Below, one piece after another: positions 39,249-47,807 of a DNA stretch of 64,000 nucleotides (its first letter is position 1; every line of letters begins with the position of its first letter). The position numbers and the translations under genes are program-made. The notes under the pieces are model-generated. The model ran no database searches and was not told where the DNA came from. It saw only the letters and a list, made by a program, of their open reading frames with translations. The stretch lies in NCBI GenBank assembly GCA_011525845.1, contig WYBP01000002.1, forward strand, positions 1 through 64,000. Direction: 5' to 3'. The stretch comes from Gemmatimonadaceae bacterium (GTDB lineage: Bacteria > Gemmatimonadota > Gemmatimonadetes > Gemmatimonadales > Gemmatimonadaceae).

Positions 39249-40196
39249 TCAGCGCCCGTCGTCCGTCCTCCGGACGCACCAGCCGAGTCCCATCCGGAAC
39301 ACCTCGGACCACTTGCCGGCGCCGTACTTGAGCACGATGAGGTCCGGCGTGGCGGCGTAGCGCCACTGCTCGACGATGATCTCGTCCACGCCGTCGCCGT
39401 CGAGGTCCACGTGGTTGGCGACGCGCTGGAAGTCCACGGCGCGGGCCTCGCCGTTGGCGAGGTGCGAGTAGCTCGTGTTCTGGGTGCCCGCGGAATCCTC
39501 CGCGAGCGCGAGGATCATCGTCGTGTGGCCGGCCCCCGGTCCCGCGTCGCCGGCGTTGGGGTCGATGTAGCTGCCGAGCAGCGTGCGACCGCTGGGACCC
39601 GCCCCCGTGGACAACCAGCGCCCGATGAAGTCGAGGGACTGCAGCTCCTCACGCCCCACGCCGCCCGCGGTGGCGACCGCGTTCGCGATCGTGCGCCCCG
39701 GAGCGGACGCGTCCCGCGGCAGCGGGTCCGCCTTCTTCTTCTGTGGGAGCGGCACGCTCGAGGCGAGGAACTCGACGCTCTCCTCCGGCGTGATGGTCGC
39801 CTGCAGCCGCACCTCGGCCTGCGGCACCACCTCGCGGCAGGCCGGGAGGGCGTAGAGGGCGTCGACGCCGTCCATCCACATCCCGCGGCTCACCTCGACC
39901 GCCCCGACGTCGGCACCGTCGCGGTAGATCGGGAGGCGGGCACCGGCCCCGAAGTACGTGGAGTCGAAGGTGCGCCACCCGTCGTTGTCGAGCACGATGG
40001 GCTGGAGCGCGCCGTTCGCGATGATCGCGATCGGGGCGGCGCGCGGTTCGTCGCGCGCGCCGTAGACGGTGAAGAGCACGGCGCTCGCCGTGCTCATGTC
40101 GGTCAGCGGAACGGGCGGGGGCAGCTCGGCTTCGTTCGGCTTGTCGCAGGCGAGCGCCAGGAGTAGGATGCTCGCGATGATCACGGGACGGCGCAT
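39249..40196 (-). CDS. Lipoprotein with FG-GAP-like repeat end
   Basis: This 315-residue lipoprotein starts MRRPVIIASILLLALAC with the lipid-site Cys and an acidic start (DKPNEAELPPPV). Near the C-terminus VDLDGDGVDEIIVEQWRYAA is a calcium-binding, FG-GAP-like motif (DxDxDGxxE), and the chain ends WSEVFRMGLGWCVRRTDDGR. No catalytic motif was seen. It is divergent from nurA, whose likely start lies inside this gene (40168). It is probably an outer-membrane or periplasmic lipoprotein of unknown role. Confidence 0.75.
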   Translation of the reverse strand: MRRPVIIASILLLALACDKPNEAELPPPVPLTDMSTASAVLFTVYGARDEPRAAPIAIIANGALQPIVLDNDGWRTFDSTYFGAGARLPIYRDGADVGAVEVSRGMWMDGVDALYALPACREVVPQAEVRLQATITPEESVEFLASSVPLPQKKKADPLPRDASAPGRTIANAVATAGGVGREELQSLDFIGRWLSTGAGPSGRTLLGSYIDPNAGDAGPGAGHTTMILALAEDSAGTQNTSYSHLANGEARAVDFQRVANHVDLDGDGVDEIIVEQWRYAATPDLIVLKYGAGKWSEVFRMGLGWCVRRTDDGR

Positions 40197-41169
40197 CTGG
40201 CCAAGCTATGGCCCGTCCAAGGGAGCGGCAAGCATCCGCGACGCCCTCCGGGCGCTCCGGCGATCCGGCATCCACGCCACCGCCGGCGCGGTTCCCCTGG
40301 AGGCGCTGGCGCGCCAGGATGAGCCGCCGCGGCTCGAGGCGGCGGAGCCGCTCGAAGGGTCCCAGGTCAGCGTGCGGCGCGTGGAGCCCGATGGCACGAC
40401 GTCCTTCGTCGCCTTCCTCGACGGGATCCAGCGTTCGCGCGTCCTCGCGCACGCCGGCACGGTCCCGATCGTCCATGGCGCCGTCGCGGCCGCCGTGCGG
40501 CGGCGGGAGCGTCGGCGCCTGACCACCTGGCAGGAGCCGGTCGTGGCCGAGGCGCTCTACGCCCCCCTGCGTGCGCTGCCCGCGGCGCTCGCCGCGGCGC
40601 TGCAGGAGCACTGTCCGATGGTGGACACCTTCGCGGACGAGGCCGCCGATGCCGCACGACATCCGCAGGAGGTCAGCGCACGCGCCCTCACGGCCGTGCA
40701 GCGCGCGCGCGAGGGCGCGGAGCAGGAGCTCCTCACGCGCTGGGTGCGCGAGGTCGCGGAGCCGGTGCTGGTGGACGGCGGCATCAGCGCGAACGCCGAC
40801 GCGGCGCGGGCCGCGTGCGCGGTGGGGGTGGTGAAGTCCCACCGGACGCTCTACGTGAGCGGCGACACGCTCGGCCTCGTGCTCGGCCTTCGCGAGGGGG
40901 AGCGGACGACGGCGATCGGGCTCTCGACGCCGCGCCGCACGCCGGTGGCGAGCTGGTACCTCCGGCTCCGGACGCACGAGGGACGCTCTCCGCTCCACGG
41001 ACTCGTGCGCGTGGAGGCCGCCCGGGGCGAGGATCTCACCGGGCGCGCCGACCGCATCTCGCGCTGGCTCCTCGCGGAGCGCACGCCCGTCGCGCTCCCC
41101 GACCAGCGCTGGGACGTGATGGTCTACGGCATCCGCGAGTGCGAGCAGTACCTTTCGGCCATCCTGTGA
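40168..41169 (+). CDS. nurA: NurA-like nuclease
   Basis: The 333-residue protein shows the NurA-fold hallmark FVAFLDGIQRSRVL (about 90-103), a Mg2+ site of 5'-3' nucleases that works with HerA. A helical N-terminal part (SIRDALRALRRSGIHATAGA) and a C-terminal domain with VEAARGEDLTGRADRISRWL follow. The start is uncertain: ATG 40168 has AGGAG four bases upstream but lies 29 nt inside the divergent lipoprotein gene. No other ATG/GTG/TTG follows until well inside the domain, and an ATC at 40234 with AAGGGA upstream is a non-standard option. It is joined by a 4-nt overlap (GTGA) to herA, confirming the pair. Confidence 0.75.
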   Translation: MLAMITGRRIWPSYGPSKGAASIRDALRALRRSGIHATAGAVPLEALARQDEPPRLEAAEPLEGSQVSVRRVEPDGTTSFVAFLDGIQRSRVLAHAGTVPIVHGAVAAAVRRRERRRLTTWQEPVVAEALYAPLRALPAALAAALQEHCPMVDTFADEAADAARHPQEVSARALTAVQRAREGAEQELLTRWVREVAEPVLVDGGISANADAARAACAVGVVKSHRTLYVSGDTLGLVLGLREGERTTAIGLSTPRRTPVASWYLRLRTHEGRSPLHGLVRVEAARGEDLTGRADRISRWLLAERTPVALPDQRWDVMVYGIRECEQYLSAIL

Positions 41170-43145
41170 GCACACCTCCGCCCCCGCCGTCCGCGCCCGC
41201 CGTCCTCGGGCGCGTCGTCGCGACCGAGCGCCGGCCCAACACGCCGCACGAGTTCCACTTCTGGACCGCGCTCGACGCGCCGGTCGGGATCGGGACCATC
41301 GTGCGCGTGGAGAGTGCGCGCCCCGTGAACGGCGTGCTCCCGCGCATCTACGGCGTGGTGACGGAGGCGTTCGGCTACACCGACCTACAGACGCCGCTGC
41401 ACGACGTGCTCGGCGCCGACGGCGAGCCGGGCGCGAGCGCGTTCGCGCCGACGGACCGCACCGAGATCCGCCTCTACACGGCCGCCGTGCTCCGGCACCT
41501 GCCCGAGGAGCCGCTCCAGCCCGTGCCGATGGGCACCGTGCACCTCGCGAGCGAGGCGGACGTGCAGGTGGCGCTGCGGATGGACACGTACGTCACCGGC
41601 GATGCGCCACGCGGGATCCCCGTGGGGCTCTATCGCGCGGGCGGCACGGAGGCCGCCGTGCAGCTCGACGCCGACTTCCTCCTCGGGCCGGAGGCCGCGC
41701 ACCTCTCGATCTCCGGCGTCTCGGGGCTCGCCACCAAGACGAGCGCGGTGGAGTGGCTGCTCCAGAGCATCTTCACGCACTTCCCGGCGTCCAAGGGGGG
41801 CGTGGCCGCGGTCTGCTTCAACGTGAAGGGCCCCGACCTCTGCTTCCTCGACCAGCCGGCCCTCGCGCTCGCCGACGAGGACCGCGCGATGTACGCCGCA
41901 CTCGGCGTGCCCGCGGAGCCCTTCACGAACGTCCGCTACTACGCGCCCTGGACGGCCCGCGGCACCCAGCTGGCGACCCTCCGCTCGAACGACGCGCTGC
42001 AGGAGAACGTGCACCCGCTCACCTGGGGCCTGCGCGAGACGCTGCAGTACGCCGAGGTGCTGCTCAACAAGGACGACATCGACGCGAAGGCGGACGCGCT
42101 GATCGACTTCATCAAGGAGCGGGTGCTCGACCAGCCCTTCAGCGACCCCGCGTTCGAGCGCGCGCACGAGGTGCGCTCGTTCGCGGACCTGGAGCAGTGG
42201 TTCCGCGAGCTGCTGCGCGCGATGGAGCAGCGGAACGCCGACCAGTGGCGCACGCACCATGTGGCCACCATCCGGAAGGTGCGGAACCGGCTCTCGAACA
42301 TCTCCACGCGCTGCCGCGGCCTCGTCACGAACGACGGCTCGATGAGCGACCTGCCGTTCGGCGCGTTCGAGGACCGGGGCGTGTACGTCGTGGACGTCGC
42401 GAACCTCGAGGAGGATGCGCAGGACCTCGTCTTCGCGCGCATCGTCTCGCAGCTGCGCGAGCACCTCGAGCGGCGCCAGCTCGGCGTGGAGCACGTGGTG
42501 GTGTTCGTCGACGAGCTCAACAAGTACGCGCCGGCGGACGGGCCGGAGACGTACGTGCGCAAGATGCTCCTCGACATCGCCGAGCGCGGCCGCTACCTGG
42601 GACTCGTGCTCTTCGGCGCGCAGCAGTTCCGGTCGCAGGTGCACCGGCGCGTGGTGGGGAACAGCGGCACGGCGCTCTACGGCCGGATGGATCCCGACGA
42701 GCTCGCGACCCCCGGCTACCAGACCATCACGCCGGCGATCAAGGCGCGGCTCGCCACCCTCGAGAAGGGGCAGCTGATGGTGCGGCACCCGCACTTCGGC
42801 CAGCCGATCTTCGTCCGCTTCCCGCGGCCGGCGGTGCTCGGCGGGCGCGAGGGCGTGGCCCGGTTCCCGCAGGCGGAGGAGCTCACGCTCGAGGCCGCGG
42901 TCACCAAGGGGCTGCGGCGCCTCGACCCGTCCGTCACCCTCGGGTGGGTGCAGGACGCGCTCGCCCTCGCGGGGGAGGACGAGGACGGCATCCTGCGCGC
43001 GCGGAACCGCACGCTGCAGGCGCGCCCCGACGACGTGAAGGCGTACTTCAAGGCGCAGCTCCGCAAGCGCGTCGCCGCCGAGCGCGCGGCGCCGCGCGGG
43101 CCCACGCCGCTCCGCGTCCCGCCCCCCGACGATCCCTACGGCTGA
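41166..43145 (+). CDS. herA: HerA-like hexameric ATPase
   Basis: This 659-residue HerA/FtsK-type ATPase is the motor of the NurA-HerA complex that resects broken DNA ends. The N-terminal region (about 1-150) is a beta-barrel HAS-like domain (GRVVATERRPNTPHEFHFWT). The P-loop is SISGVSGLATKTSAVE, with GVSGLATKT at about 184-192, not the usual GxxGxGK(S/T). Walker B is VVVFVDELNKYAP (about 440-452), and a sensor/arginine-finger part with RRVVGNSGTALYGRMDPDEL follows. The GTG at 41166 overlaps the nurA stop by 4 nt. It is followed 41 nt later by sbcD. Confidence 0.85.
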   Translation: MSTPPPPPSAPAVLGRVVATERRPNTPHEFHFWTALDAPVGIGTIVRVESARPVNGVLPRIYGVVTEAFGYTDLQTPLHDVLGADGEPGASAFAPTDRTEIRLYTAAVLRHLPEEPLQPVPMGTVHLASEADVQVALRMDTYVTGDAPRGIPVGLYRAGGTEAAVQLDADFLLGPEAAHLSISGVSGLATKTSAVEWLLQSIFTHFPASKGGVAAVCFNVKGPDLCFLDQPALALADEDRAMYAALGVPAEPFTNVRYYAPWTARGTQLATLRSNDALQENVHPLTWGLRETLQYAEVLLNKDDIDAKADALIDFIKERVLDQPFSDPAFERAHEVRSFADLEQWFRELLRAMEQRNADQWRTHHVATIRKVRNRLSNISTRCRGLVTNDGSMSDLPFGAFEDRGVYVVDVANLEEDAQDLVFARIVSQLREHLERRQLGVEHVVVFVDELNKYAPADGPETYVRKMLLDIAERGRYLGLVLFGAQQFRSQVHRRVVGNSGTALYGRMDPDELATPGYQTITPAIKARLATLEKGQLMVRHPHFGQPIFVRFPRPAVLGGREGVARFPQAEELTLEAAVTKGLRRLDPSVTLGWVQDALALAGEDEDGILRARNRTLQARPDDVKAYFKAQLRKRVAAERAAPRGPTPLRVPPPDDPYG

Positions 43146-43172
43146 CCGGTGCGGCGGCGCGGTTGGCGGGCG

Positions 43173-43178
43173 TAGATT
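43173..43178 (+). promoter_or_regulatory. Putative -10 element for sbcD
   Basis: TAGATT lies eight bases before the GTG at 43187, with no ribosome site in between. It resembles the elements at 12257, 25753 and 27319 and suggests a separate, leaderless transcript for sbcD-sbcC. Confidence 0.35.
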
Positions 43179-43186
43179 CCCGCAGC

Positions 43187-44380
43187 GTGCGCCTCGTCCA
43201 CCTCTCTGACCTCCACCTCGGGTTCCGCCAGTTCCAGCGGCAGACCCCGGCCGGGATCAATCAGCGTGAAGCTGACGTCGCGGCGGCCTTCGCGCGCGCG
43301 GTGGACAAGCTCATCGACCTCGCCCCCGACGTGATCCTCATCGGGGGCGACGTGTTCCATACGGTGCGCCCCACGAACACGTCGATCCTCCACGCGTTCC
43401 AGCAGTTCTCGCGCCTCGTCGCCGCCCTCCCGAGGACCGAGGTGGTGATCGTCGCCGGGAACCACGACATGCCGCGGTCGACGGAGACGATCTGCATCCT
43501 GCGGCTCTTCGCCGCACCGCTCGGGATCCACGTGGCGGACCGGGAGCCGCGGCGACTGCGGTTCGACGCGCTCGAGCTCGCGGTGCTCGCGGTACCCGAC
43601 CTCCCGCCGGGGAGCGTCGAGCTCGCGCCCGACCCGACGGTGCGGTACAACGTCCTCCTCCTGCACGGCGAGATCCAGGGGGCGCTCCCGCACGCCGACA
43701 CGCCGGACCGCGCCGCGGCGCAGATCCCCGTGGCCGAGGTCACCCGCGAGGGATGGGACTACGTCGCGCTCGGCCACTACCACGTGTACAAGCGCGTCGC
43801 CGACCACGTGTACTACTCGGGCTCGCTCGAGTACACGAGCACGAACCCCTGGGGGGAGCTCGCCGAGGAGAAGGCGGCCAAGCTGCCGGGGAAGGGGATG
43901 ATCGAGCGCGACCTGGCCACCGGGAAGCAGACCTTCCACCCACTGCCGGTCACGCGTGCCTACCTCGACCTGCCGCCGATCGAGGGGCGCGGGATGTCGG
44001 CCGAGGACCTCGACAAGGCCATCCAGGCGGCGGTCGCCCGGGTGAGCGGCGGCGTGGAGGGGAAGGTGGTGCGCCTCGTCGCGCGCAACGTTCCCCGCCA
44101 CATCGCTCGCGAGATCGACCACAAGGCACTCCGCGAGCTGCAGCGGAGCGCGCTGCACTTCCACTTCGACACGCGCCGGCCGGAGCTGGTGAAGCGGCAG
44201 GTGGGCGGTGGGTCTCCGGGCCGGCGCCCCTCGCTCGCCGAGACGCTGCGCGAGGCGCTGCGGAGCCGGTCGCTCCCTGCCGGGGTGGATGGTGACGCGC
44301 TCATCGCGCTCGGGCTCCACTACCTGCAGGAGGCCGAGGTCTCGGAGCCCTCCCCCGAGCTGCCGGGAGAGGGCGCATGA
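43187..44380 (+). CDS. sbcD: DNA double-strand break repair nuclease, SbcD/Mre11-like
   Basis: This 397-residue metallophosphoesterase nuclease forms the Mre11-Rad50 (SbcCD) complex with the next gene product and trims DNA ends and hairpins. The phosphoesterase motifs are in order: HLSDLHLGFR (motif I, about 5-14), LIGGDVFHTVRPTN (II, about 52-65), IVAGNHDMP (III), a LLLHGEIQ segment and GHYHVYKRV (V). A C-terminal capping part follows (about 270-397). The start is GTG 43187. The stop overlaps the sbcC start by 4 nt. The protein length is like the archaeal/bacterial Mre11 type. Confidence 0.92.
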   Translation: MRLVHLSDLHLGFRQFQRQTPAGINQREADVAAAFARAVDKLIDLAPDVILIGGDVFHTVRPTNTSILHAFQQFSRLVAALPRTEVVIVAGNHDMPRSTETICILRLFAAPLGIHVADREPRRLRFDALELAVLAVPDLPPGSVELAPDPTVRYNVLLLHGEIQGALPHADTPDRAAAQIPVAEVTREGWDYVALGHYHVYKRVADHVYYSGSLEYTSTNPWGELAEEKAAKLPGKGMIERDLATGKQTFHPLPVTRAYLDLPPIEGRGMSAEDLDKAIQAAVARVSGGVEGKVVRLVARNVPRHIAREIDHKALRELQRSALHFHFDTRRPELVKRQVGGGSPGRRPSLAETLREALRSRSLPAGVDGDALIALGLHYLQEAEVSEPSPELPGEGA

Positions 44381-46845
44381 GGCTCGCGCGGCTCCGGCTC
44401 CTGAACTTCCGCCAGCACGCGGAGAGCGAGATCGAGTTCGACTCGGGCCTCACGGGGATCATCGGCCCGAACGGGGCGGGGAAGTCGACCATCCTCGAGG
44501 CGATCGCCTGGGCGCTCTATGGCGGGAACACCGTGCGCGGCGGGAACGAGTCGCTCCGCTTCCACCGCGCGAGCGCGCGCGCGCCCGTGCGGGTGGAGCT
44601 CGACTTCGACCTCGGCGGGCACCGCTACCGCGTGGTGCGGGGGCTCACCACGGCGGAGCTCTTCCTGGACGGCGGGGAGCAGCCGATCGCCAACTCGGTG
44701 ACGGCCGTGGCCGAGATGCTCCAGCGGCGCATCGGGATGACGCGCACCGAGTTCTTCAACACGTACTTCACCGGCCAGAAGGAACTCGCGGTGATGCAGT
44801 CGCTCACCGCCGGAGAGCGCGCGCAGTTCCTGTCGCGGGTGCTGGGGTACGAGCGGCTCCGCGCCGCGCAGGAGCTCTGCGCGGCGCGGCGCAAGGAGCT
44901 CGCGAGCGAGATCCAGGGGCTCCGGACCGGGATGCCCGAGGGCGATGCCGTGGCGCGCGACGAGGCGGAGACGGCGCGTGCGCTCGAGGCCGCGACCCGC
45001 GCGGCGGAGGAGGCGGACCGCCTCGAGCGGGAGACGCAGGAGGCGCTCCAGTCGGTGGCCCCGCGCTGGCTGGCGGCGCAGACGGGACGCGAGGAGCGGC
45101 AGCGCGTGGCGACGGAGCTGGCGGCCGTGGAAGGCGAGGCCGGGGCGCTCACCCGCGCCGAGGCGCGCCACGCGCAGGAGCTCGAGCAGGTGGCCGAGGC
45201 GCGGACGGCGCTCACCCCGCTGCTGCCGGACGTCGAGGCCTTCGAGCGGGTGCGGAAGGAGCTGGAGACCTCGCGCGCCCTCGCGATCAGCGATGGCCGC
45301 CGGCGGGCGCTGGCGGACACGCAGGCGGCGCTCGCCCTGGAGGTGCAGGTGCTGGGCGAACAGCGCACGCGGCTCGCGGCGGCCCCGGCGGAGGAGGAGC
45401 AGGCGACCCTCGAACTCGAGACGAAGCGGCGCGCGCTCGAGGAGGCGCAGGGGAAGCTCGAGTCGCGGCGCACCGAATGGGTCCGTGACCGCCAGGAGGT
45501 CGACACGCGGCTGCGCGCCCTCCGCGGCCAGTACGCCGAGCTCCGGGACCAGCGCGACACCCTCGTGCAGCTCGGCGACGAGGGGAAGTGCCCCACCTGC
45601 ACGCGCCCGCTCGGCGAGCACTTCCGCAACGTGCTCGACGTGCTCGAGCGCCAGATGGAGACCGTGGAGGCCGATGGTGCCTACTTCCGGTCCCGGCTGG
45701 AGCAGCTCGAGGGGATGCCGGCCGACATCGAGCACCTCGACGAACAGCGCAGGAAGCTGCAGGCGGAGGTGGGGCAGTCGGAGCGGCGGCTCGCGAAGGT
45801 GCAGGCGGGCGTGGCGCAGCTGGCACAGGTGGAGCGCGACCTCGCCGCCAAGGGTGCGCGCCTCGCCGCGGCGAGCGCCGAGCTCGAGGGGATCGCCGGC
45901 GGGTACGACGAGGCGCGGCACCGCGCGCTCGAGGCGGAGCACGCGCGCCTCGCCGAGTCGAGCACGCTCGCCAACCGGCTCTCCACGCGCATCGAGCGCG
46001 AGCCGGCACTGCTGCGGGAGGCCGAGTCGCTCGCGCGGCAGCGCGCCGCGCTGGAGGAGCGCCGCAAGGCCGCCAGCGCGCGGCTCGCGGCCCTCGAGTT
46101 CCCCGAGGATGAGTACCTCGAGCTCCGGCGGCTGCACGACGAGGTGGCGGCGGCGTACGCCGAGGCATCCCGGGCGGCGGCCGGGGCACGCGCCGGCCGT
46201 GAGCTCGCCCAGGCCGCCGCCGACCGCGCGGCGACGGCGCGCGCCGAGTACGAGCGGCTCTCCGCCCTCGTGGAGGCGCTCGAGCGCGACCGGCGCCTGC
46301 ACGAGGAGCTGCACCGCGCCTACTCCGACCTCCGCACCGACCTGAACTTCCAGCTGCGCCCGGAGGTCTCCGAGATCGCGTCGAACTTCCTCACGGAACT
46401 CACCGACGCGCGCTACACCGAGCTGGAGCTCGACGACAAGTACCGCCTGCTCGTGCTCGAGGAGGGCGTGCCGAAGCCGGTGATCTCCGGGGGCGAGGAG
46501 GACATCGCGAACCTCGTGCTGCGCCTCGCGATCTCGCAGATGATCGCGGACCGCGCCGGGCAGTCCTTCTCCCTCCTCGTGCTCGACGAGGTGTTCGGCT
46601 CGCTCGACGAGGTGCACCGGCAGAACGTGATCGACCTGCTGCGCGGCCTGCACGACCGGTTCGAGCAGGTGATCCTCATCACGCACATCGAGGGGGTGCG
46701 CGACGGGCTCGACCGCGTGGTCTCCGTCGGGTTCGACCCGAAGTCGGGCGCTGCGGTCGTGACGACGGCCGACCCGGCGCTCGCCGAGAGCGCGCTCCTG
46801 GGCGCGGGCGCGGGCGCGGGCGCGGGTGCGGGGAGCGCGGCGTGA
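44377..46845 (+). CDS. sbcC: DNA double-strand break repair ATPase, SbcC/Rad50-like
   Basis: This is the ABC-ATPase partner of SbcD: two ATPase halves joined by a long coiled coil. The 822-residue chain has Walker A IIGPNGAGKSTILEAIAWAL (about 28-47), coiled-coil regions about 170-400 and 415-690, and the zinc hook CPTC with cysteines C405 and C408. The signature is VISGGEEDIANL and Walker B is SLLVLDEVFGSLDE. The length is normal for Rad50-type bacterial SbcC (800-1000 residues). The last residues are a Gly-Ala repeat encoded by five GGCGCG-type hexamers (46801-46830). It is joined by ATGA to sbcD and by a GTGA overlap to the GNAT gene. Confidence 0.93.
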   Translation: MRLARLRLLNFRQHAESEIEFDSGLTGIIGPNGAGKSTILEAIAWALYGGNTVRGGNESLRFHRASARAPVRVELDFDLGGHRYRVVRGLTTAELFLDGGEQPIANSVTAVAEMLQRRIGMTRTEFFNTYFTGQKELAVMQSLTAGERAQFLSRVLGYERLRAAQELCAARRKELASEIQGLRTGMPEGDAVARDEAETARALEAATRAAEEADRLERETQEALQSVAPRWLAAQTGREERQRVATELAAVEGEAGALTRAEARHAQELEQVAEARTALTPLLPDVEAFERVRKELETSRALAISDGRRRALADTQAALALEVQVLGEQRTRLAAAPAEEEQATLELETKRRALEEAQGKLESRRTEWVRDRQEVDTRLRALRGQYAELRDQRDTLVQLGDEGKCPTCTRPLGEHFRNVLDVLERQMETVEADGAYFRSRLEQLEGMPADIEHLDEQRRKLQAEVGQSERRLAKVQAGVAQLAQVERDLAAKGARLAAASAELEGIAGGYDEARHRALEAEHARLAESSTLANRLSTRIEREPALLREAESLARQRAALEERRKAASARLAALEFPEDEYLELRRLHDEVAAAYAEASRAAAGARAGRELAQAAADRAATARAEYERLSALVEALERDRRLHEELHRAYSDLRTDLNFQLRPEVSEIASNFLTELTDARYTELELDDKYRLLVLEEGVPKPVISGGEEDIANLVLRLAISQMIADRAGQSFSLLVLDEVFGSLDEVHRQNVIDLLRGLHDRFEQVILITHIEGVRDGLDRVVSVGFDPKSGAAVVTTADPALAESALLGAGAGAGAGAGSAA
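46801..46830 (+). repeat. Five tandem GGCGCG-type hexamers at the sbcC 3' end
   Basis: Four perfect GGCGCG copies and one GGTGCG encode a Gly-Ala run at the extreme C-terminus of SbcC. Copy number change would alter only tail length and keep the frame. Confidence 0.75.
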
Positions 46846-47807
46846 GCGACGTCGCCTCCCGCGTGAGCGGCCCCTTCCCGATCCGCGACGAGGACCTCAC
46901 GGCCCTCAACGGGCTCTTCAGCGACGCCTTCAGCGAGCGTTACCGCCGCGACGGGATGGCCGGCGTGCGCGTGCCGCCGCTCAACCCGGTGATCTGGCGC
47001 TTCGCGATCGAGGGGTCCGCGAAGGGCGCGATGCTCTGGCGCGACGGCCTCGGGAAGATCGCCGCCTTCAACCTCGCGCACGTCTCCGGCCGCGAGGGCT
47101 GGATGGGACCGCTCGCGGTGCGTGACGACCTGCAGGGTCACGGGCTCGGGCGCACCATCGTGCGCGCGGGCATCGAGTACCTCCGCGGGGCCGGCTGCAG
47201 GGTGATCGGGCTCGAGACGATGCCGCGGACGATGGACAACATCGGTTTCTATGCCGCCCTCGGGTTCCTCCCCGGCCGGCTCACCATCACGCTCACGCTC
47301 GACGCGCAGCCCGCGACGGACCGGCGGCCGCCCCTCCTCAGCGAGCATGCGGCGGACGAGCGCGCGGCGATCATCACGGAGGCGGCCGCGCTGGCCGATG
47401 CGGTGCGCGCGGGGAGCGACTACTCGCGCGAGATCGTGCTCACCCTCGGGCATGGGCTCGGCGACCTGCTCCTCCTGCGCGACAACTGGGGGGAGATGGA
47501 GGGGTTCGCGCTCTTCCACGACGCGCCCCTGGTGGAGGGGCGCAGCCGGGAGGAGCTCCGCGTGCTCAAGCTCGTGCTGCGCGACGTCGGGGCGATGCCC
47601 CGGATGGCGGAGGCGCTCGCGGCGCAGGCCCGGCGGAGTGGCGTGATGCGCGTCGCCATCCGCGTGCAGGGCGACTATCCCGGCGCGTTCCGCGCACTCG
47701 TGGCGCGCGGCGCGCACGTGCGCTGGACGGACCTGCGGATGAACCTCACCGGCTTCGAGGAGGTGCCGGCGGCGTCGGGGGTGGTGCTCTCGAACTGGGA
47801 GATCTGA
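46842..47807 (+). CDS. GNAT acetyltransferase-like protein, two-domain
   Basis: This 321-residue protein starts GTG 46842 within the sbcC stop. The N-terminal half is a GNAT fold with the acetyl-CoA motif GPLAVRDDLQGHGLGRTIVR (motif A, about 90-109) and NIGFYAALGFLPGRLTITL (motif B, about 133-151). The C-terminal half (about 165-321) is a second, degenerate GNAT-like unit with REIVLTLGHGLGDLLLLRDN. It is the last gene of the repair operon, so a link to DNA repair is possible but not shown. Substrate unknown. Confidence 0.85.
   Translation: MSDVASRVSGPFPIRDEDLTALNGLFSDAFSERYRRDGMAGVRVPPLNPVIWRFAIEGSAKGAMLWRDGLGKIAAFNLAHVSGREGWMGPLAVRDDLQGHGLGRTIVRAGIEYLRGAGCRVIGLETMPRTMDNIGFYAALGFLPGRLTITLTLDAQPATDRRPPLLSEHAADERAAIITEAAALADAVRAGSDYSREIVLTLGHGLGDLLLLRDNWGEMEGFALFHDAPLVEGRSREELRVLKLVLRDVGAMPRMAEALAAQARRSGVMRVAIRVQGDYPGAFRALVARGAHVRWTDLRMNLTGFEEVPAASGVVLSNWEI

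Follow-up and report, generated by a model that had tools for sequence, protein, structure and literature searches.

A nurA-herA-mre11-rad50-GNAT gene run in Gemmatimonadaceae as a candidate stand-in for RecBCD/AddAB

The window analyzed here is a 64,000-nucleotide stretch of the genome of a Gemmatimonadaceae bacterium (GCA_011525845.1, contig WYBP01000002.1, positions 1 to 64,000). Within it, genes for NurA, HerA, Mre11 (SbcD), Rad50 (SbcC), and a GNAT-family acetyltransferase form a single co-directional run on the + strand (40168-47807). Our analysis suggests that this run encodes, with fair probability, a chromosomal system for end resection that takes the place of RecBCD/AddAB. A role in resection is probable on grounds of homology and of co-evolution read from genomes. 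Among close relatives, HerA-NurA was lost mainly where the lineage had acquired the standard bacterial resection machine. Because this loss tracks the gain of RecBCD, the four-protein set probably stands in for RecBCD. The preliminary description of the window, a reading made before any database search, had proposed a candidate non-standard bacterial double-strand break repair system. This proposal is supported, as are the gene identities, the missing RecBCD/AddAB, and the conserved linkage of the genes in Gemmatimonadota.

Loss of HerA-NurA and presence of RecBCD in relatives

The window genome is 99.8% complete. No match to RecC (PF04257) was found in it or in the single-contig congener G128, and G128 also gave no PDDEXK_1 match. 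The window genome encodes three UvrD-type helicases, and its only PDDEXK_1 protein is an IrrE-UvrD-PDDEXK fusion. This fusion was considered as AddA/RecB and rejected, as its scores lie far below the equivalog cut-offs and neither RecC nor a second PDDEXK_1 protein is present. Neither RecC nor a recognizable AddAB nuclease-helicase pair was therefore found in the window genome, and the absence of recBCD/addAB, which the preliminary description had named as a point to check, was borne out. The fusion itself is a 1256-residue frame (L075:4012-7782, contig C19) with IrrE-like M78 peptidase, UvrD helicase, and PDDEXK nuclease domains. It may be an accessory or defence helicase-nuclease, and its N-terminal part may be a separate gene.

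Across the 179 genomes of the family, HerA was found in 148 (83%) and RecC in 46. Among the high-quality family genomes, RecC was present in 13 of the 18 without HerA versus 17 of the 87 with HerA (p 2.8e-5 by a Fisher test, which ignores shared ancestry). For that reason, a tree-based count was added, with a tree of Mre11, Rad50, and GNAT from 53 family genomes and with HerA assumed never to be regained. On this tree, in which one g3 node is weakly supported (0.39), HerA was lost five times. All five losses (5/5) fell in RecC-positive lineages (24% of the tree length), an outcome with a chance probability of about 8e-4. In the genomes compared for this (G039, G055, G068, G090, G134, and G144), about 6 kb separates RecC from a PDDEXK open frame of RecB size. 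The HerA-negative genomes G155, G216, and G218 have no RecC and carry AddAB-size PDDEXK_1 genes instead; the HerA-negative family genomes number 31, of which 11 are unlisted by name and have a known AddAB status only where they appear in the PDDEXK_1 results.

The site of the loss was visible in some genomes. In G019 and G055, nurA-herA is cleanly missing from its place beside the divergent lipoprotein gene, with the secreted-protein gene on the other side of the empty site, and mre11-rad50-GNAT stays. A homologue of the window's divergent lipoprotein-like gene flanks the empty nurA-herA site in L094 and L095. The whole order carries HerA-NurA beside Mre11-Rad50 that scores as archaeal-type, and RecC-bearing relatives lost HerA-NurA from this same site. 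These relatives provide natural species pairs for direct testing of the replacement idea. The window's own genus includes three small genomes (1.8-2.1 Mb) with RecC present and HerA absent, namely G028 (locus L096), G247, and G254.

The gene run and its proteins

The run and its left border are laid out as follows.

39249..40196, - strand: divergent lipoprotein-like gene that borders the run on the left; no family match
40168..41169, + strand: nurA, predicted RNase H-like nuclease, Deinococcus-type NurA, 333 residues
41166..43145, + strand: herA, predicted hexameric-type DNA translocase ATPase, 659 residues, GTG start
43187..44380, + strand: mre11/sbcD, predicted metallophosphoesterase nuclease, 397 residues, start at GTG 43187 or TTG 43163
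44377..46845, + strand: rad50/sbcC, predicted ABC-ATPase with coiled coil and CPTC zinc hook, archaeal Rad50-like, 822 residues
46842..47807, + strand: GNAT-family acetyltransferase (Acetyltransf_1, 4.8e-12), conserved final gene of the run, 321 residues

Three of the four junctions of the five-gene run are 4-nucleotide overlaps: nurA/herA (herA GTG at 41166, nurA stop at 41167-41169), mre11/rad50 (rad50 ATG at 44377, mre11 stop at 44380), and rad50/GNAT (GNAT start at 46842, rad50 stop at 46845). The remaining junction, herA-mre11, is a 41-nucleotide gap from 43145 to GTG 43187, which shortens with TTG 43163 as the start. For nurA, the start codon is uncertain (40168 to about 40225), as the beginning of the gene overlaps the divergent lipoprotein-like gene. 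The run is a putative operon whose genes may be co-transcribed. The preliminary description had placed the four genes in one run with overlaps at nurA-herA and sbcD-sbcC. All four were found in place and in the same orientation, and both overlaps are present in addition to the rad50/GNAT overlap. Since its start overlaps the rad50 stop, the GNAT gene lies inside the run and is not merely trailing.

The Pfam models recovered neither NurA nor HerA. The Pfam NurA model (PF09376) did not reach its gathering score on the window NurA (P0001) and gave a single match (E 0.21) among 18 NurA relatives, and Pfam DUF87 had no match to the window proteins. The PF09376 score sets a limit for detection and does not define NurA biologically. 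A profile built from the 18 relatives matched Deinococcus radiodurans NurA (7f6d_H) at E 2.2e-5. In Foldseek, the AF2 model of the window NurA (pLDDT 83) matched 7f6d_G at 1.4e-11 and Thermotoga maritima NurA (1zup) at 3.3e-10, with no other match below 0.001, and it has the RNase H-like core with NurA-specific topology. D85, K223, and R314 of the window NurA are invariant in 18 aligned family members and align with D53, K201, and R309 of D. radiodurans NurA, which mutation identified as required (PMC9960219).

The HerA profile matched D. radiodurans HerA (7f6d_B) at 1.4e-144 over almost its whole length. The HerA model (pLDDT 78) matched 7wrw_A at 4.2e-36, followed by HerA of Thermococcus kodakarensis and Sulfolobus (9x1m/4d2i). 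It combines a HAS barrel with a RecA-like ATPase whose Walker A-like (GVSGxATKT) and Walker B (DELNKYA) motifs are nearly invariant. We rejected a description of this Walker A as degenerate: the loop reads GVSGLATKTS here and GISGVATKTS in the aligned D. radiodurans HerA and is therefore a subfamily trait rather than decay. The archaeal HerA model scored 15.9 bits on the window HerA against a cut-off of 800, and neither protein was assigned to the archaeal HerA/NurA subfamily. By sequence, both proteins belong to the Deinococcus type rather than the archaeal one. With D. radiodurans HerA-NurA (7f6d, 7wrw), the window pair shares the GxSGxATKT ATP-binding loop, the NurA fold, and the three NurA residues. 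Unlike it, the window pair is linked to mre11-rad50 and GNAT, and the window HerA has a longer C-terminus, with about 90 additional residues past the part matched to D. radiodurans HerA. D. radiodurans is stated to lack Mre11-Rad50 (PMC12977600), yet its sbcCD is mentioned elsewhere (PMC4663267).

Mre11 matched Metallophos (2.9e-11), TIGR00619 (7e-21), and the Sulfolobus Mre11 model (1.7e-19). Its DLH, GDVFH, GNHD, and GHYH motifs are all intact, its closest solved relatives are archaeal Mre11, and it was the single Mre11 match in the window genome. Rad50 scored 204 bits on the archaeal-type NCBIfam Rad50 model versus 86 bits on SbcC, and its solved relatives are all Rad50. It carries Walker A (GPNGAGKST), the CPTC hook, the signature SGGEE, and Walker B (LLVLDE). 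By score, the Mre11-Rad50 pair is archaeal-type.

The identities given in the preliminary description, NurA-like, HerA-like, SbcD/Mre11, and SbcC/Rad50, were upheld. Its concern that HerA and NurA motifs might not hold up in profile searches did not materialize, as both matched their Deinococcus counterparts with concordant folds. Rejection of NurA and doubt about HerA from Pfam, NCBIfam, and PADLOC scans alone were overturned by the same profile and fold comparisons.

The surroundings of the run are housekeeping in character. Its left neighbours encode an aminotransferase and an Lrp/AsnC-type domain, and its right neighbours are PTPS, GTP cyclohydrolase (folE), a short-chain dehydrogenase, GCS2, and an acyl-CoA ligase. 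No mobile genes were seen among the neighbours scanned.

Conservation in the phylum and related arrangements

Synteny across Gemmatimonadota was examined in 150 phylum genomes, with HerA matched in 101, NurA in 84, Mre11 in 132, and GNAT in 93. NurA and HerA are adjacent in 67 of the 74 genomes in which a single contig carries the two. The distance from HerA to Mre11 is at most 3.5 kb, on the same strand, in 74 of 76, and the spacing from Mre11 to GNAT is kept in 82 of 84. Because adjacency and spacing are kept across genomes, the grouping is not due to chance, and the synteny that the preliminary description had left to be checked holds across the order. The four genes form a tight run in the window's genus and in some others. 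In G006 and G109, NurA-HerA and Mre11-Rad50 stand 10-17 kb apart. Secreted DUF6263-type genes occur at L016:3563-4357, L021:3471-4424, L023:3464-4291, L094:4058-4873, and L095:6879-7709. In most Gemmatimonadales, this gene separates herA from mre11, and it stays after nurA-herA loss; the herA-mre11 junction of the window does not contain it.

Linkage of the four families extends beyond the order. A herA-sbcD-sbcC-nurA run was found in 53 of the 54 related Deinococcus-type herA loci with enough downstream sequence (L077-L081, L097-L176), the loci having been taken as the 80 best HerA matches and not as a random bacterial sample. They belong mostly to Actinomycetota (Micromonospora, Actinoplanes, Acidimicrobiia) and to other Gemmatimonadota families of the class. 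Bacterial linkage of the four families is common for Deinococcus-type HerA, and the earlier statement that bacterial HerA-NurA is usually separate from SbcCD does not hold for these loci. Like the window, these runs gather the same four functions, with HerA about 30-33% identical to the window's. They differ in gene order, in having no GNAT, and in an ordinary bacterial SbcCD (one scanned, L077). Unlike the window genome, the Gemmatimonadota genomes with such runs also have AddAB-like genes; in L081 (G052), the run lies within about 10 kb of two AddAB-size PDDEXK_1 genes. L082-L084 (G072, G070, and G067, from other families of the class) carry a divergent nurA-herA-sbcD-sbcC run in the window's order, so gene order changed more than once within the phylum.

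The archaeal operon for end resection has the order herA-mre11-rad50-nurA (Sulfolobus, Pyrococcus), which recurs in Actinomycetota and among the other families of the class. The window was described beforehand as arranged as in archaea. This stands for the gene set, the same four families in one co-directional run, but not for the order, which is nurA-herA-mre11-rad50-GNAT here. The window's Mre11-Rad50 further resembles the archaeal operon in scoring best on archaeal models and structures. Unlike that operon, the window has Deinococcus-type HerA and NurA and a GNAT gene, and its bacterial host also has RecJ.

Proposed role and alternatives

In the proposed mechanism, Mre11-Rad50 would bind and tether the broken end and clear away proteins or hairpins. 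A HerA hexamer is predicted to load beside it together with a NurA dimer. HerA would then pump duplex inward, and NurA would digest mainly the 5' strand, leaving a 3' tail onto which RecA would be loaded. The loader is presumably RecFOR, because the set contains no known RecA loader. We infer the physical cooperation of Mre11-Rad50 with HerA-NurA, the resection polarity, the RecFOR loading, and the role of GNAT alike. The proposal agrees with reports that NurA-HerA of D. radiodurans carries out resection of 5' tails in vitro (PMC9960219) and that Sulfolobus Mre11 interacts with HerA (PMC2288612). The job proposed, processive helicase-nuclease resection at double-stranded DNA ends, is the same as that of RecBCD/AddAB. 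The machinery is different, with a HerA/FtsK hexamer as motor versus SF1 helicases and an RNase H-like versus a PDDEXK nuclease. Unlike for RecBCD/AddAB, we know of no chi recognition or RecA loading by HerA-NurA/Mre11-Rad50.

Several observations weigh against this role. We are aware of no experiment on the system in any Gemmatimonadota. RecJ, encoded in the window genome (TIGR00644, 1.2e-146), offers another resection route. Several lineages carry both HerA-NurA and RecBCD, a co-occurrence that fits RecBCD gain first and HerA-NurA loss later. Outside the family, three members of the order (G013, G038, and G043) have neither HerA nor RecC, with PDDEXK_1 a weak match only in G013 and none listed for G038 and G043. 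Most relatives have a secreted-protein gene between herA and mre11 (DUF6263 in one tested case), so co-transcription of the four genes is not universal. In Deinococcus/Thermus strains deleted for nurA or herA, damage resistance was modest or even improved (PMC9960219). These mild mutants contrast with the UV and heat sensitivity of Thermus thermophilus HB27 upon loss of hepA (PMC5448004). Both strands are cut by HerA-NurA of Thermococcus kodakarensis, for which the authors of that study consider a role in resection doubtful (PMC12977600, 2026).

The presence of RecJ leads to a different division of labor, in which RecJ (with RecQ/UvrD) and RecFOR carry out the main resection and HerA-NurA-Mre11-Rad50 is auxiliary, acting on hairpins, protein-blocked ends, and stalled forks, a view that has been put forward for Deinococcus. 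UvrD-family helicases are present as well, and RecJ-RecQ is favoured as the main route in D. radiodurans (PMC9960219). We consider this rather unlikely, since RecJ is nearly universal in bacteria (PMC1193525) and the loss of HerA-NurA along with RecBCD gain would be left unexplained. It is improbable that the genes are neighbours by descent only, with NurA-HerA and Mre11-Rad50-GNAT working as independent modules. The persistence of Mre11-Rad50-GNAT after NurA-HerA loss, the secreted-protein gene that splits the two halves in most relatives, and the separated halves in G006 and G109 would agree with such modules. The same four families are nevertheless linked in another order elsewhere in the class, in Actinomycetota (with a different SbcCD type), and in archaea, and the recurrence of the linkage across different gene orders points to joint function.

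A role in defence by destruction of foreign linear DNA, similar to HerA-Sir2 or HerA-DUF4297 and with Mre11-Rad50 as sensor, appears quite improbable. HerA fold neighbours include HerA of anti-phage complexes, PADLOC mad8 matches HerA at 1.3e-11, mad3/LmuB match Rad50, and an antiviral role was proposed for archaeal HerA-NurA (PMC12977600). Unlike the Sir2-HerA and DUF4297-HerA systems, the window HerA has NurA as its partner and no Sir2 or DUF4297 effector was found, and the PADLOC matches are weak or partial. The best matches are to Deinococcus HerA-NurA rather than defence HerA, and the genes occupy one conserved locus amid housekeeping genes at the prevalence given above. A defence-island reading as first choice was rejected on this neighbourhood and prevalence. 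Because RecBCD also degrades phage DNA, a shared defence function is compatible with the replacement pattern, which fits repair, defence, or both; prevalence and locus favour repair.

All of the protein families were already known, and HerA-NurA has been studied in Deinococcus-Thermus. What sets the window apart is its arrangement, with Mre11-Rad50 of archaeal type by score. According to a 2023 paper, HerA-NurA in bacteria is confined to a few groups such as Deinococcus-Thermus (PMC9960219); Actinobacteria are among the groups for which a review gives bacterial homologues (PMC8708640). In the open-access literature, nothing was found on this system in Gemmatimonadota or on Gemmatimonadota with RecBCD, and Gemmatimonas together with NurA returned one unrelated paper only. 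In 2005, a survey of recombination genes in bacteria led to the conclusion that there must be presynaptic systems not yet known, since many recombining genomes are without most presynaptic proteins (PMC1193525). We tentatively suggest that Mre11-Rad50-HerA-NurA (with GNAT) could be a third functional class of bacterial recombination-initiating machine, order-wide and exchangeable with RecBCD/AddAB, with a related version in another gene order in many Actinomycetota.

The GNAT protein had been described as a possible added regulator at the end of the run. Its membership in the run is conserved. If it acts on the system, GNAT belongs with Mre11-Rad50, because it is conserved beside this pair even where HerA-NurA is gone. 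As a guess, it may tune Mre11-Rad50 by acetylation. Found beside rad50 across the order, GNAT (46842-47807) may merit attention as an Mre11-Rad50 modifier.

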